Shown here: positions 13,788-20,714 of the stretch, in pieces
Layout of the letters: each line of letters starts with the position of its first letter
Position numbering within the stretch: position 1 is the first letter of the stretch
Assembly: GCA_019359505.1 (NCBI GenBank)
Contig: JAHHHD010000007.1
Location: 1-64,000 of the forward strand
Reading direction: 5' to 3'
Source: Drouetiella hepatica Uher 2000/2452
Lineage (GTDB): Bacteria; Cyanobacteriota; Cyanobacteriia; Elainellales; Elainellaceae
DNA: 64,000 nt
Translations under genes and position numbers: made by a program
The notes under the pieces: model-generated
The model's database searches: none
Seen by the model: only the letters and a program-made list of their open reading frames with translations
What the model was told of the DNA's origin: nothing

Positions 13788-13800
13788 TGACCGCAAGTTT

Positions 13801-14136
13801 AGGTTAAAACGCGATCGTTCTTGCTCAAAATGCCAAGATTGCGCTGTTAAGCTCAAAGTTTCTCGTTTGAAACGCGATCGTTCTTGTTTGAAACGAGAAA
13901 CTTTGAGCAAAAAGCAAGAACGTTGTTGTTTAAAGCAGCATCGTTGCTGTTCTGAACTCGGAGTTTGTCGTTTGAAGGGCGATCGTTGCTGTTCTGAACT
14001 CGGAATGTGCTGTTTTGAGGGAGAGCGATCGGGTTCTGGACACAAAGATTGGTGTGTAAAGCTCGAAGGCTGTCGTTTGAGACAAGGAAGGTGCGGTTCA
14101 GAACGCGAAGGCTGTTGTTTATCGACTCAGCTTTTC
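13801..14136. repeat. Degenerate 21-bp tandem repeat array, 16 units
   Basis: The stretch divides into sixteen 21-bp units. Translated in one frame they appear as heptads such as RLKRDRS (twice), CSELGVC, CSELGMC, RLKGDRC. Several units contain GCGATCG. The plus frame 13696-14160 and two minus-strand frames are open across it, simply because the unit length is a multiple of three and lacks stops, so I treat it as non-coding. The units begin 14 bp after the RluA stop. A second array of 21-bp units with a different sequence occurs at 19819-20028. Confidence 0.75.
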
Positions 14137-14148
14137 CCGAATAATCTG

Positions 14149-14247
14149 ATACCAATTTAAGACCTAAACAGGGCAGATGATTTTCGAGAGCCGCGCTCCG
14201 CGCGGCTCTCGAAAATCATCTGCCGCCTCATCAACTTAAATTGGTAT
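14149..14247. repeat. Hairpin element H4 with 13-bp outer inverted repeats
   Basis: Inner hairpin: arms 14172-14196 and 14200-14224, 25 bp perfect, loop TCC. Outer inverted repeats: ATACCAATTTAAG at 14149-14161 and its exact complement at 14235-14247. The 99-bp unit therefore looks like a miniature element with terminal repeats. Its left flank recurs without a hairpin at 47088-47118 with identical spacing. Confidence 0.85.
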
Positions 14248-14345: not shown

Positions 14346-14591
14346 ATGGAAACTGTCAATATTCACCAAGCCAAGACAAACCTTTCGCGTCTGTTGTCGC
14401 GTGTAGAACTCGGAGAAGAGATCATTATTTCAAATCGAGGTATTCCTGTAGCAAAGTTGGTTCCCTTTCGTACCATTCACAATCGACAGGATAGCTTGGG
14501 GCTGGATAGAGGGCGTTTTGTCGTGCCTGAAGCCTTTAATGCTCCTTTGCCGGAAGAGATCTTGGCAGCATTCGAGGGAAATGAAGCGTGA
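14346..14591 (+). CDS. Phd/YefM-type antitoxin
   Basis: An 81-residue antitoxin: the N-terminal Phd/YefM DNA-binding fold is evident in METVNIHQAKTNLSRLLSRVELGEEIIISNRGIPVAKLVP (quoted here in parts: NIHQAKTNLSRLL and ISNRGIPVAKLV), followed by an extended acidic tail (LPEEILAAFEGNEA) that would wrap the toxin. It neutralises the adjacent PIN-domain toxin and probably autorepresses the operon. The stop overlaps the toxin GTG start by 4 bp, the normal arrangement for a co-translated pair. No Shine-Dalgarno is obvious because a tandem duplication fills the upstream region. Confidence 0.9.
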   Translation: METVNIHQAKTNLSRLLSRVELGEEIIISNRGIPVAKLVPFRTIHNRQDSLGLDRGRFVVPEAFNAPLPEEILAAFEGNEA

Positions 14592-14989
14592 AGCTCTTGA
14601 TGGATACCCAGTTCTGGTTGTGGTGGTTTGCTCAACCAGAACGCTTGAGTGAAGAGGCGATCGCTTGCCTTGCTGATGAAACCCATGAAGTGTGGTTCTC
14701 TGTAGCTAGCGTTTGGGAAATAGGCATTAAAGTTGCGATCGGAAAACTGCCGCTGCCAGAACCCGTAGACAGCTACATAGCTAGCCGCATGGGGCAATTA
14801 AGGGCACGATCGCTAGAAATTTCGGCAACTCATGCGTTACGAGCGGCTGCTTTGCCTTTGCATCACCAAGACCCGTTTGACAGAATGCTAATCGCACAGT
14901 CGCAGTCGCAAGACATGACAATTGTGAGTGCTGATGCCATGTTCGGGCAATACCGTGACGTCTTCATTCTTTGGGCAGCCCATTCGTGA
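14588..14989 (+). CDS. PIN-domain ribonuclease toxin (VapC-like)
   Basis: A 133-residue PIN-domain protein. The acidic metal-binding residues expected of an active nuclease are all present: Asp6 in LMDTQFWLWW, Glu44 in SVWEIGIK, Asp95/Asp98 in HHQDPFDRML and Asp116 in VSADAMF. The WEI-IK and DPFDR motifs place it with toxins paired to Phd-type antitoxins. It begins with GTG at 14588 inside the antitoxin stop. Such toxins cleave tRNA or rRNA to arrest growth; the exact target cannot be read from sequence. Confidence 0.9.
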   Translation: MKLLMDTQFWLWWFAQPERLSEEAIACLADETHEVWFSVASVWEIGIKVAIGKLPLPEPVDSYIASRMGQLRARSLEISATHALRAAALPLHHQDPFDRMLIAQSQSQDMTIVSADAMFGQYRDVFILWAAHS

Positions 14990-18037: not shown

Positions 18038-18287
18038 GCCTACTCCTGGACGATCGCCAATCCCACACTTGTTGCTACTCAGATTGCTACTCAGATTGCC
18101 ACTCAGACCCAATCACTATTCAAACCTAATCATCCTTTCAAAAACCTGTCCCTAGGGAACTATATCGAATTCCGGTGCTATTCGTATCTCTTGAAACTAA
18201 AGCCTGATGCTTTCAGTATCTTTAGGTATACAGATTCAAGGATCAAATAAAGATAAGCTGGAAAAATGTGCTTTATCTCTTGCGTCC

Positions 18288-19790
18288 ATGCCTCCAAGCC
18301 AGCCTGTTTCCACCCTTGTTTCCACACTTCAGAATTACATTAACGGCGAGTGGTGCGACTCGATCGCCTGTGAATTTTTAGACATCCTCAATCCAGCTAC
18401 GGCAGAAAAGCTTGCCCGCGTACCGCTTTCGCCAGAGGCTGAGATTAACCGAGCAACCGAAGCCGCCGCGATCGCCTTCAAATCTTGGCGGCGCACCCCG
18501 CCCACCCAGCGCGTTCAGTATCTTTTTCGGCTAAAGGTGCTGATGGACGAGCATTTTGAGGAGCTGTCCCAGACAGTGACGATCGAGTGTGGCAAAACCC
18601 TAGACGAGGCGAGGGGCGAAATTCGGCGGGCGATCGAAAACGTAGAGACAGCCTGCGGCATTCCCATGATGATGCAGGGCGCAAACCTCGAAGATATTGC
18701 TTCCGGCATTGACGAGTCCATGATTCGGCAGCCGTTAGGCGTAGCAGCCGTGATTGCCCCCTTCAACTTTCCCGGCATGATTCCCTTCTGGTTTATGCCC
18801 TACGCGATCGCTTGCGGCAACACCTACATCGTCAAGCCCTCCGAGAAAGTGCCCCTGACCATGCAGAAAGTGTTTCAGCTGCTCGATCAGACCGGCTTAC
18901 CCAAAGGCGTAATTAACCTGGTAAATGGGGGCAAAGCTGCCGTCGATGCCATTCTCGACCATCCACAGATTCGCGCCATCAGCTTCGTAGGCTCTTCCCC
19001 CGTCGCCAAGTATGTCTACAGCCGTGCTGCCGCCCAAGGCAAGCGAGTTCAGTGCCAAGGCGGAGCCAAGAACCCCGTGATTATCCTGCCCGACGCCGAC
19101 CTCGAAATGACCACCCGCATCACCGCCGACAGCGCCTTTGGCTGTGCCGGACAGCGTTGCCTCGCCGCCTCGATCGCCATCACCGTCGGCGAAGCCCAGC
19201 AGCCCTATACGGAAGCGATCGCCGAAGCCGCCACCAGCCGTGTTGTTGGCTTCGGACTAGAGACAGGCGTACAAATGGGTCCCGTCATTAGCGCCCAGAG
19301 CCGAACGCGAATCGAGCAGCTCATCCAGCAGGGAGCCGACGAAGGCGCAAAAGTGCTGATTGACGGACGCAACCCCTCTATTTCCGGCTACGAACACGGC
19401 AACTTCATCCGCCCCACCCTGCTGCAAAACGTCAATCCGCGCAGCCAGACCGCCCAGACCGAAATCTTTGGTCCCGTCCTTAGCCTCATGCATGTCGAAA
19501 CCCTCGACGAAGCGATCGCCCTCGTCAACAACAGCCCTTGGGGCAACATGGCTTGCCTCTTCACCAGCAGCGGCGCAGCAGCCCGCAAATTCCGTTATGA
19601 AGCCGAAGCCGGGAACATCGGCATCAACATCGGCGTTGCCGCCCCCATGGCATTCTTCCCCTTCAGCGGCTGGAAAGAAAGCTTCTACGGCGACCTGCAC
19701 GGACAAGGACAACAGGCGATCGAATTCTTCACCCAAACCAAAGTCGTCGTAGAGCGATGGAGCCAAAAAGACTGGTCACGCAAATTCTAA
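18288..19790 (+). CDS. Aldehyde dehydrogenase, methylmalonate-semialdehyde dehydrogenase type
   Basis: NAD-dependent aldehyde dehydrogenase of 500 residues. Landmarks of the MmsA/IolA branch: YINGEWCDS start, [38 protein letters not shown] and the catalytic Cys in [10 protein letters not shown] (codon near 19158), then [10 protein letters not shown] and [17 protein letters not shown]. In this branch an Arg pair and GQRC replace the common GQxC context and the enzyme is often CoA-acylating; substrate is inferred. An in-frame ATG at 18207 would add 27 residues without family similarity, so 18288 is preferred. Followed by a repeat-filled gap. Confidence 0.85.
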
Positions 19791-19818
19791 GCAGACCCAC
19801 ACCACAATAACGTCCGCT

Positions 19819-20028
19819 CATTCCTGACTAATGTTCAAGCACTCCTGACTAACGCCCAAGCGTTCGTTAGTAACACCCGATCGCTCCTCATTACTACCCA
19901 AGCGCTCCTGACTAACGCCCGATCGTTCCTGACTCGCGTTCAAGCACTCCTAACCAATGCTCAAGCGTTCGTTAGTAACACCCGATCGCTCCTCATTACC
20001 GCCTGAACGCTCCTGACTAACGCCCGAT
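19819..20028. repeat. Degenerate 21-bp tandem repeat array, 10 units with 5-unit higher-order repeat
   Basis: Ten contiguous 21-bp units, consensus close to CGCTCCTGACTAACGCCCGAT. Units 3 and 8 are identical, as are units 5 and 10, and 1/6, 2/7 and 4/9 are close, so the array is a duplication of a 105-bp block. HIP1-like CGATCG junctions occur between units. It lies just after the aldehyde dehydrogenase stop. From 20029 to 20160 the sequence is a C/G-rich stretch with short inverted segments and no gene. Confidence 0.85.
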
Positions 20029-20183
20029 CCCCCACCCATGCGAAGCGCTTCCTCCCGCCCATCCATCATCCCTTGCGCAGGGGGCGTGGGGGAGGCGCCT
20101 CGTCCCCCACCGGGGGTTTGGGGGAGACCCCCAAGGCTGTTGGCTGCTCCCTAGGCTTAACGCAAAAATCGGTAGTCCTCAAA

Positions 20184-20238
20184 ATGTAATGATTTTTTAT
20201 TGGGCGGGCTTCGCCCGCCCAATAAAAAATCATTACAT
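20184..20238. repeat. Hairpin element H5 (26-bp arms, TTC loop)
   Basis: Arms 20184-20209 and 20213-20238 are perfect complements around TTC. Short outer repeats AGTCCT (20174-20179) and AGGACT (20246-20251) bracket it. The left flank (about 20165-20179) recurs without a hairpin at 52146-52160. It lies 20 bp past the end of the ABA4-like gene on the opposite strand. Confidence 0.9.
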
Positions 20239-20258: not shown

Positions 20259-20714
20259 CTAACCCGAAACCGTCTCACCCTCCACAACTCCCCCCGCAAA
20301 AAACCGCCGAGACACCCACTGCGTCACAATGTGAGACAGCAAACCCATCGGCCCCGCAAACAAGCAAATAATCAGCGAATGCCTCGTCCAAACCCCCGAT
20401 CGCTGCCCCTCCCAATAAATCCATCGCCCCACAAACAGATCCATCACCAGAAAATGCACCCAGCCCGTAGCCGCCACCTTTTCATTGGCAAATAGACGAG
20501 CAATATCTGCCAAAGACGGATTGGCGAACGACTGAGCCGCTTCAGGATCTAAGCTCATGCCAAACAAATACACATAGACCCCAGCAAGCAGCAAAAACGG
20601 CAAAAACGATTCCATCACCTTGCGGGTCACACTCCAATTGGGTAAGCCAATCATCAGCAGCCAGAAAGGTAGAACAAAAAAATTGGCGCTGTCGAACAAG
20701 AGAGAAGGTGTCAT
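20259..20714 (-). CDS. ABA4-like (DUF4281) membrane protein
   Basis: A 151-residue protein with four membrane segments. Typical DUF4281 features: an N-terminal NFFVLPFWLLMIGLPNW segment, then DIARLFANEKVAATGWVHFLVMDLFVGRWIYWEGQR and a final FAGPMGLLSHI segment. Plant ABA4 is needed for neoxanthin formation, and cyanobacterial homologues are suspected in carotenoid or lipid metabolism; no reaction is proven. Transcribed leftward, 24 bp downstream of the phosphoribosyltransferase gene, so the two may form an operon. Confidence 0.85.
   Translation of the reverse strand: MTPSLLFDSANFFVLPFWLLMIGLPNWSVTRKVMESFLPFLLLAGVYVYLFGMSLDPEAAQSFANPSLADIARLFANEKVAATGWVHFLVMDLFVGRWIYWEGQRSGVWTRHSLIICLFAGPMGLLSHIVTQWVSRRFFAGGVVEGETVSG

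Follow-up and report, generated by a model that had tools for sequence, protein, structure and literature searches.

The REP and BIME elements of enterobacteria are short non-coding repeats, with longer palindromes, found close to the 3′ ends of genes and between convergent genes, and the STRR of cyanobacteria are heptanucleotide tandem repeats of intergenic DNA. A further class, made up of constant-size repeats of 20–21 nt, was reportedly covered by an earlier survey of Subirana and Messeguer (J. Bacteriol. 2020). According to a paper by the same authors (PMC8161180), bacterial tandem repeats can keep a constant size of 20–21 or 52 nt with a variable sequence, and Cyanobacteria are one of several groups that have them. 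The paper describes the constant-size repeats as generally non-coding, with several families per genome and a dominant size in repeat-rich species; the repeat length equals two helix turns, and small RNAs or a protein that forms polymers along the DNA are proposed. Cyanobacterial repeats of the heptamer TAACTGA are described in PMC4679880.

The window analysed here is the whole stretch of 64,000 nucleotides from Drouetiella hepatica Uher 2000/2452 (contig JAHHHD010000007.1). It contains two arrays of 21-bp units, termed A and B, the second of which lies between two convergent genes (positions are those of the window).

13798..14133, read on the − strand: array A, built of 21-bp units that belong to the widespread A-type family.
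18207..19790, + strand: gene for an aldehyde dehydrogenase (PF00171; Pfam Aldedh, E 7.9e-138), left neighbour of array B, with its stop 18 bp ahead of the array.
19808..20029, no strand assigned: array B, tandem 21-bp units with a consensus of about CTAACGCCCGATCGCTCCTGA and no coding signal found (TRF, lag profile, shuffle significance, stop counts).
19819..19923, no strand assigned: block 1 of array B (units 1–5).
19924..20028, no strand assigned: block 2 of array B (units 6–10), agreeing with block 1 at 92 of 105 positions (86% over a slightly shifted frame in a repeat search).
20019..20140, no strand assigned: dispersed repeat of intergenic DNA that overlaps the right end of array B (blastn).
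20184..20238, no strand assigned: perfect 26-bp inverted repeat with a 3-nt loop, a possible terminator of both convergent genes.
20259..20714, − strand: gene for an ABA4-like protein (PF14108; Pfam), right neighbour of array B, convergent.

Array B is a block duplication on top of a tandem repeat. Its ten units, counted from 19819, form two 105-bp blocks in which the corresponding units 1/6, 2/7, 3/8, 4/9 and 5/10 agree at 17, 17, 21, 16 and 21 of 21 positions, units 3 and 8 and units 5 and 10 being identical. TRF reports 2.1 copies of period 105 at 19808–20029 (87% match, 0% indels) and, in a second row, 9.7 copies of period 21 at 19822–20025; one extra degenerate unit extends the array leftward to 19808. 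The best composite periodicity over periods 9–60 is 0.653, whereas 2,000 Markov shuffles average 0.33 and do not exceed 0.405, and the strongest lags are 105, 63, 126, 21, 42 and 84. An earlier note, made from the letters of the sequence, had described ten 21-bp units in two five-unit copies with the same identical pairs, and unit alignment, TRF and shuffles all confirm this. The units abut and thus lack the unique spacers that separate the repeats of a CRISPR.

With these features array B fits the known, unexplained class of constant-size 20–21-nt repeats. The class is defined by at least four regular tandem repeats, and array B has ten units free of indels. The gene caller placed no gene in its gap, and stops occur in all six frames with just one in the best frame, which agrees with the non-coding nature of the class without being absolute proof of it. 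Several families of one dominant size are present as well in our sample of the genome, where eight of nine long gap arrays repeat at a multiple of 21 bp and unit consensuses differ. Units of the class are species-specific, and at E ≤ 1e-4 array B matches only itself in 291 genomes of the taxonomic class, its own included; within its own genome it matches only itself, apart from short chance-level hits, yet a similar array exists in the relative G033. Unlike such species-specific units, the A-type unit is common to several genera and families; the size here is exactly 21, with multiples of 42–105, rather than 20–21, and orthologous arrays can be compared. Most arrays of a genome in the described class have a short sequence in common. 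Here the A-type arrays share a consensus, array B and several others have different ones although array B weakly resembles some A-type arrays, and a search for a short motif present in every array found none. Like REP and BIME, the 21-bp repeats are short and non-coding and occur close to the 3′ ends of genes and between convergent genes, but their 21-bp units abut instead of forming longer palindromes. With the heptanucleotide repeats of cyanobacteria they share the intergenic tandem arrangement and, in A-type units, a 7-bp purine/pyrimidine pattern; the period is 21 rather than 7, and array B is devoid of that pattern.

The last dozen bases of array B fall within the dispersed repeat at 20019–20140, and the homologous stretch in the sister species G003 (L121:1963-2085) also matches the D. 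hepatica contigs C35 (91%) and C57 (84%). Growth of array B from a single unit in G003 was considered and then abandoned, since the stretch in common belongs to a dispersed repeat that has further copies and since G003 has no aldehyde dehydrogenase next to its ABA4-like gene; array B has no traceable ortholog there. Hairpins like that at 20184–20238, with partly different sequences, were seen by eye at about 86596–86650 of C57 and 34460–34510 of C40, and a long hairpin occupies another window gap at about 14172–14224. After array A, at 14346–14989, lie two small genes that by eye resemble a pair of antitoxin and PIN-domain toxin.

The period shared by arrays A and B is not a coincidence. The earlier note had reported another array with a 21-bp unit at 13801, which is real (array A), and had reasoned that the shared period would be accidental if further 21-bp arrays did not exist and a random model gave two such arrays. 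Periods 9–60 were scored in 671 gaps (213 kb) of a 1.264-Mb sample of the genome (20%, window included), with genes called by a simple hexamer model. At the array threshold of 0.5 these gaps contain 28 arrays, five of period 21 and five of period 42, with nine loci for these two periods, compared with 1.4 arrays per replicate in shuffled gaps and none at 21 or 42 in five replicates. The nine gap arrays of at least 90 bp have TRF periods of 105, 84, 84, 84, 63, 42, 42, 21 and 17, so that the count of such arrays in non-coding sequence that the note had proposed does single out 21, as far as this 20% sample goes. In a 400-kb sample of G019, from another genus, which excluded two 20-kb stretches holding listed A-type matches, all three long gap arrays (63, 63 and 42) are multiples of 21; periodicity scoring recovered the same three loci at period 21, plus one array of period 14. 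Coincidence was therefore rejected.

The pattern is not shared by every relative: 200 kb sampled from each of two family members, G005 and G011, yielded no 21-bp arrays, and 286 kb of G003 (partly masked; three N-masked contigs, the source of 24 false period-60 calls, were dropped) yielded one weak array of three units. Short duplications also lack the 21-bp size. Gap TRF rows with fewer than three copies have periods mostly of 10–18 bp, with period 21 in 1 of 182 in the D. hepatica sample, where seven rows have periods of 42–105 and are at least partly the long arrays themselves, and in 1 of 24 in G019. With no 21-bp peak among them, the way in which short duplications form does not by itself account for the size. 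Inside genes, short tandem repeats of period 15 are frequent (71 of 247 coding TRF rows in our sample, with fewer than three copies).

The proposal of the earlier note that 21-bp arrays are kept irrespective of sequence is true only partly. Several unit types do occur: consensuses differ among the arrays of the genome, and array B and several others differ from the A type. However, many arrays share one consensus. A-type arrays have about CTTnnAACnnGAA in common, and the unit of array A (about CGATCGCnCTTcaAACacGAA on the − strand) is found at ten or more other places in the same genome. At E ≤ 0.01 it has matches in 33 of 59 relatives, with 27 of the 35 from the same family among them, and at E ≤ 0.001 a sample across the phylum gives 18 of 290 other genomes. 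Even among 11 arrays found by period alone (eight of the nine loci of the genome, the C57 array being left out of this likeness test, and three from G019), 7 of the 55 pairs resemble one another more than chance allows, with at most 3 of 300 permutations reaching the same likeness. Array B has weak matches at E ≤ 0.01 in 3 of 59 relatives, one of them inside the 21-bp array of G033, whose unit is similar (z 5.2, 0 of 300 permutations), and in a comparison with 39 other arrays it also weakly resembles C40a and four A-type arrays (L227, L221, L232 and C78) at no more than 1 of 300. Judged by this likeness of units, array B may be distantly related to the A type.

A two-unit A-type pattern scanned over a collection of 84,980 species gave at least 109 stretches, compared with about two expected by chance on our own estimate. 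Among the 80 loci listed, 65 are titled cyanobacteria, mostly Nostocales and Leptolyngbya-like, and 15 are titled other or unspecified bacteria; 73 overlap a 21-bp periodic segment, and the remaining seven were left out of the array sets. Four of the 15 (L267, L285, L297 and L326) resemble long non-coding arrays, and the others appear coding, weak or due to chance, the labels of these metagenome-assembled genomes (MAGs) being perhaps contaminated. Positions 29–741 of L326, in a MAG titled Streptococcaceae, are a 712-bp array of 21-bp units with two unit types one after another, and the arrays of L267 and L285 (Bacteroidetes) and L297 (Acidobacteriota) have stops in every frame. No description of the A-type unit was found in the literature searched, which covered few subscription papers.

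The arrays tend to lie near gene ends; a check of their position after stop codons had been proposed in the earlier note. Five of the nine loci in our sample are between convergent genes, compared with 46 of the 317 gaps that are 250 bp or longer, a background that contains the array gaps (p 0.006). Among the listed A-type arrays of the collection, divergent gaps are rarer than in the background (3 of 49 versus 21 of 99, p 0.019), and convergent gaps, at 15 of 49 versus 17 of 99 (p 0.09), are not significantly in excess; the 49 classifiable arrays are a set of 61 minus 12 without a flanking gene, the 61 being the listed collection arrays, of 73, minus those too short.

A-type arrays keep their register over many units. 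Identity at lag 21 and at lag 126 is the same in 29 arrays (0.55 and 0.55) and nearly so in the set of 61 (0.72 and 0.71). Neighbouring A-type units on the same strand are exactly in register in 165 of 187 cases in the D. hepatica genome, 239 of 267 in its relatives and 1,315 of 1,414 in the collection loci listed (both strands counted), counts that are biased upward since the sets were gathered with 21-periodic scores or in-register multi-unit patterns. Of the 149 out-of-register steps, 79 are off by 7 bp and 19 by 1 bp, the latter divided as 2 of 187, 9 of 267 and 8 of 1,414 listed pairs. An apparent one-base slip is present in the G019 array at C73:99186.

In alignable interiors, orthologous A-type arrays change by whole units. 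A-type arrays adjoin the same sequence in congeners, and wherever the interiors of orthologous arrays could be anchored, net differences are 21, 42 or 63 bp or zero. Compared with L077 of D. hepatica, L361 shows net shifts of 42 and 21 bp, L362 of 42 bp, and L365 of zero except for a compensating pair of single bases; L364 and L368 differ by a net 63 bp, and L360 and L371 by zero as far as the edge, at which a 28-bp gap ends the alignable part. Outside the genus, L275 and L317 differ by net shifts of 21 and 21 bp, L292 and L307 by a single 21-bp gap inside the array, and the pairs L253/L315 and L256/L287 are gap-free inside the array with gaps at an edge. Array edges carry gaps of other lengths too (28, 35 and 107 bp). 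In L253 and L315 (Fischerella and Pelatocladus) the unit patterns differ in spite of the gap-free interior, and the two species seem to have homogenised their units independently. Elsewhere in non-coding DNA, alignments of D. hepatica with its congeners show 63 gap events for 1,004 mismatches, and a single one of these gaps is a multiple of 21. A plain count of gap pieces in the arrays gives 6 events per 144 mismatches over 834 aligned bases, none of them alone a multiple of 21, and thus misses the whole-unit constraint, which is seen only after split gaps are summed to net shifts. These comparisons exclude three self-matches in whole-genome loci (L220/L362 and, twice, L222/L366) and L227/L272, which are identical and probably the same genome; L289/L349, L289/L334, L334/L349 and L294/L318 were too divergent to be judged, and L359/L072, L361/L365 and L358/L071 had no anchored interiors.

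Several explanations other than selection on spacing have to be weighed. Divisible by three, the 21-bp period could reflect a peptide repeat of seven residues, in a protein that is small or has decayed. An open frame of 154 aa runs through array A; array B has a frame with a single stop, and 36 of the 73 listed collection arrays have at least one stop-free frame, the other 37 having stops in all six. Genes are called inside 13 of 49 A-type arrays of other genomes (among the loci listed), so some A-type arrays may be coding, and the 21-bp arrays L145 of the relative G038 and C25:119676 of D. hepatica lie within long open frames, so that period 21 by itself is no proof of non-coding DNA. However, pooled profiles of 37 arrays are without period-3 power (0.04–0.07 versus 0.1), although the eight non-A arrays by themselves reach 0.13 versus 0.1 for purines, and a Pfam search with two open frames of array A gave no match. 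Array B has neither the open frame nor the codon-position pattern of a heptapeptide repeat; given its stops in six frames and the lack of pooled period-3 power, coding heptapeptides were set aside as unlikely for it, and the peptide explanation as a whole is very improbable. We also consider it improbable that 21 is inherited as 3 × 7 from a unit of three STRR-like heptamers. The purine/pyrimidine power of A-type arrays at 7 bp is 0.45–0.48 of the total, the commonest register error noted above is 7 bp, and heptamer repeats are known in cyanobacteria (PMC4679880), but A-type identity at lag 7 is low (0.36–0.37, versus 0.55–0.72 at 21) and the 7-bp pattern is missing from C25, C52a, G033 and array B, whose 7-bp purine power of 0.07 separates it from the heptanucleotide STRR. 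Somewhat less improbable, and still unlikely, are transcribed RNAs: close to the 3′ ends of genes the arrays would give rise to small RNAs or series of hairpins that act, for example, as terminators or protein sponges. The position of the arrays beside gene ends speaks for them, as does the frequent two-fold symmetry of A-type units (69% of 29 and 75% of 61 arrays). Many arrays fold better than dinucleotide shuffles, array B somewhat so (z −2.2 and −2.9), and 15 of 29 and 17 of 31 A-type arrays, the 31 being every second of the 61, fold beyond column-permuted controls on at least one strand, C25 on both. Judged by the same controls, only 9 of 29 and 7 of 31 fold well on both strands, array B is ordinary on either (z −0.3 and −1.1), and an Rfam search of the window returned no family at gathering scores. 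RNA structure was dropped as a general feature of the arrays because it is inconsistent across arrays and controls. A universal dyad was ruled out, as two-fold symmetry is found in only 2 of the 8 non-A arrays of one set (B and C35) and 1 of the 3 of another and is weak in array B (5 of 300). Phased curvature was likewise rejected: A/T power at 10.5 bp shows no excess (0.109 versus 0.1 by chance) and hence no sign of phased intrinsic curvature.

The main rival to selection on phase is a copying mechanism with a 21-bp step, by which slippage or recombination would add units to a functionless satellite and recombination between units would keep them alike. Whole-unit gains and losses between species, units homogenised separately, block duplications of 42, 63, 84 and 105 bp and the lack of a DNA match to array B in the 290 other genomes of the class (E ≤ 1e-4) speak for neutral copying. 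Yet such a step is not apparent in the short gap duplications (period 21 in 1 of 182), register is retained though units differ by 30–45%, and A-type arrays remain next to the same sequence in sister species. We thus view neutral copying as a serious but rather doubtful account of the arrays.

At a probability of roughly 0.5, we favour the reading that array B is a non-coding satellite of the constant-size 21-bp class, grown by whole-unit block duplication and kept in register, with a 21-bp step that is presumably selected. Array B would have grown by duplicating blocks of whole units, the latest step having doubled the five-unit block. The 21-bp step, equal to two helix turns, may be held by selection, for which the simplest cause would be a protein that occupies adjacent units along the same face of the double helix; the arrays, with this putative bound protein, would sit in gaps, mostly beside gene ends. 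The likeliest cause of the fixed size, we infer, is selection that acts through a binding protein and favours a length of two helix turns. The missing 10.5-bp A/T signal and the lack of an all-array motif for one sequence-specific protein count against selection on phase. So do the upward bias of the register counts, the one-base slips, the plain gap count and the edge gaps of other lengths, the samples of G005 and G011 without 21-bp arrays, the gene calls inside some A-type arrays, the untraced array B and its folding beyond dinucleotide shuffles.

A broader and distinctly more tentative proposal is that in filamentous cyanobacteria the 21-bp phase of intergenic satellites, not their sequence, is selected, and that the arrays might be helically phased platforms for a protein assembling along DNA near gene ends. 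The A-type unit, often two-fold symmetric, with its 7-bp purine/pyrimidine beat and its occurrence across families (some loci being titled other phyla), might then be the ancestral or best-bound form, and B-like arrays might be new or have drifted, with the spacing as the main feature conserved.

A fixed size with changing sequence is poorly explained by ordinary slippage and hints at a physical constraint on DNA phase. The present case makes this testable, with many arrays, aligned orthologous arrays in sister species, a unit that crosses genera and short duplications without the 21-bp size. The contrast of long arrays with short duplications, the changes by entire units between orthologous arrays and the occurrence of one unit type across families go beyond the available parts of PMC8161180. 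If selection is not the cause of the fixed size, a copying mechanism with a 21-bp step is required. A nucleoid protein that reads phase, if the proposal is true, would add a new component to the way cyanobacterial chromosomes are organised.
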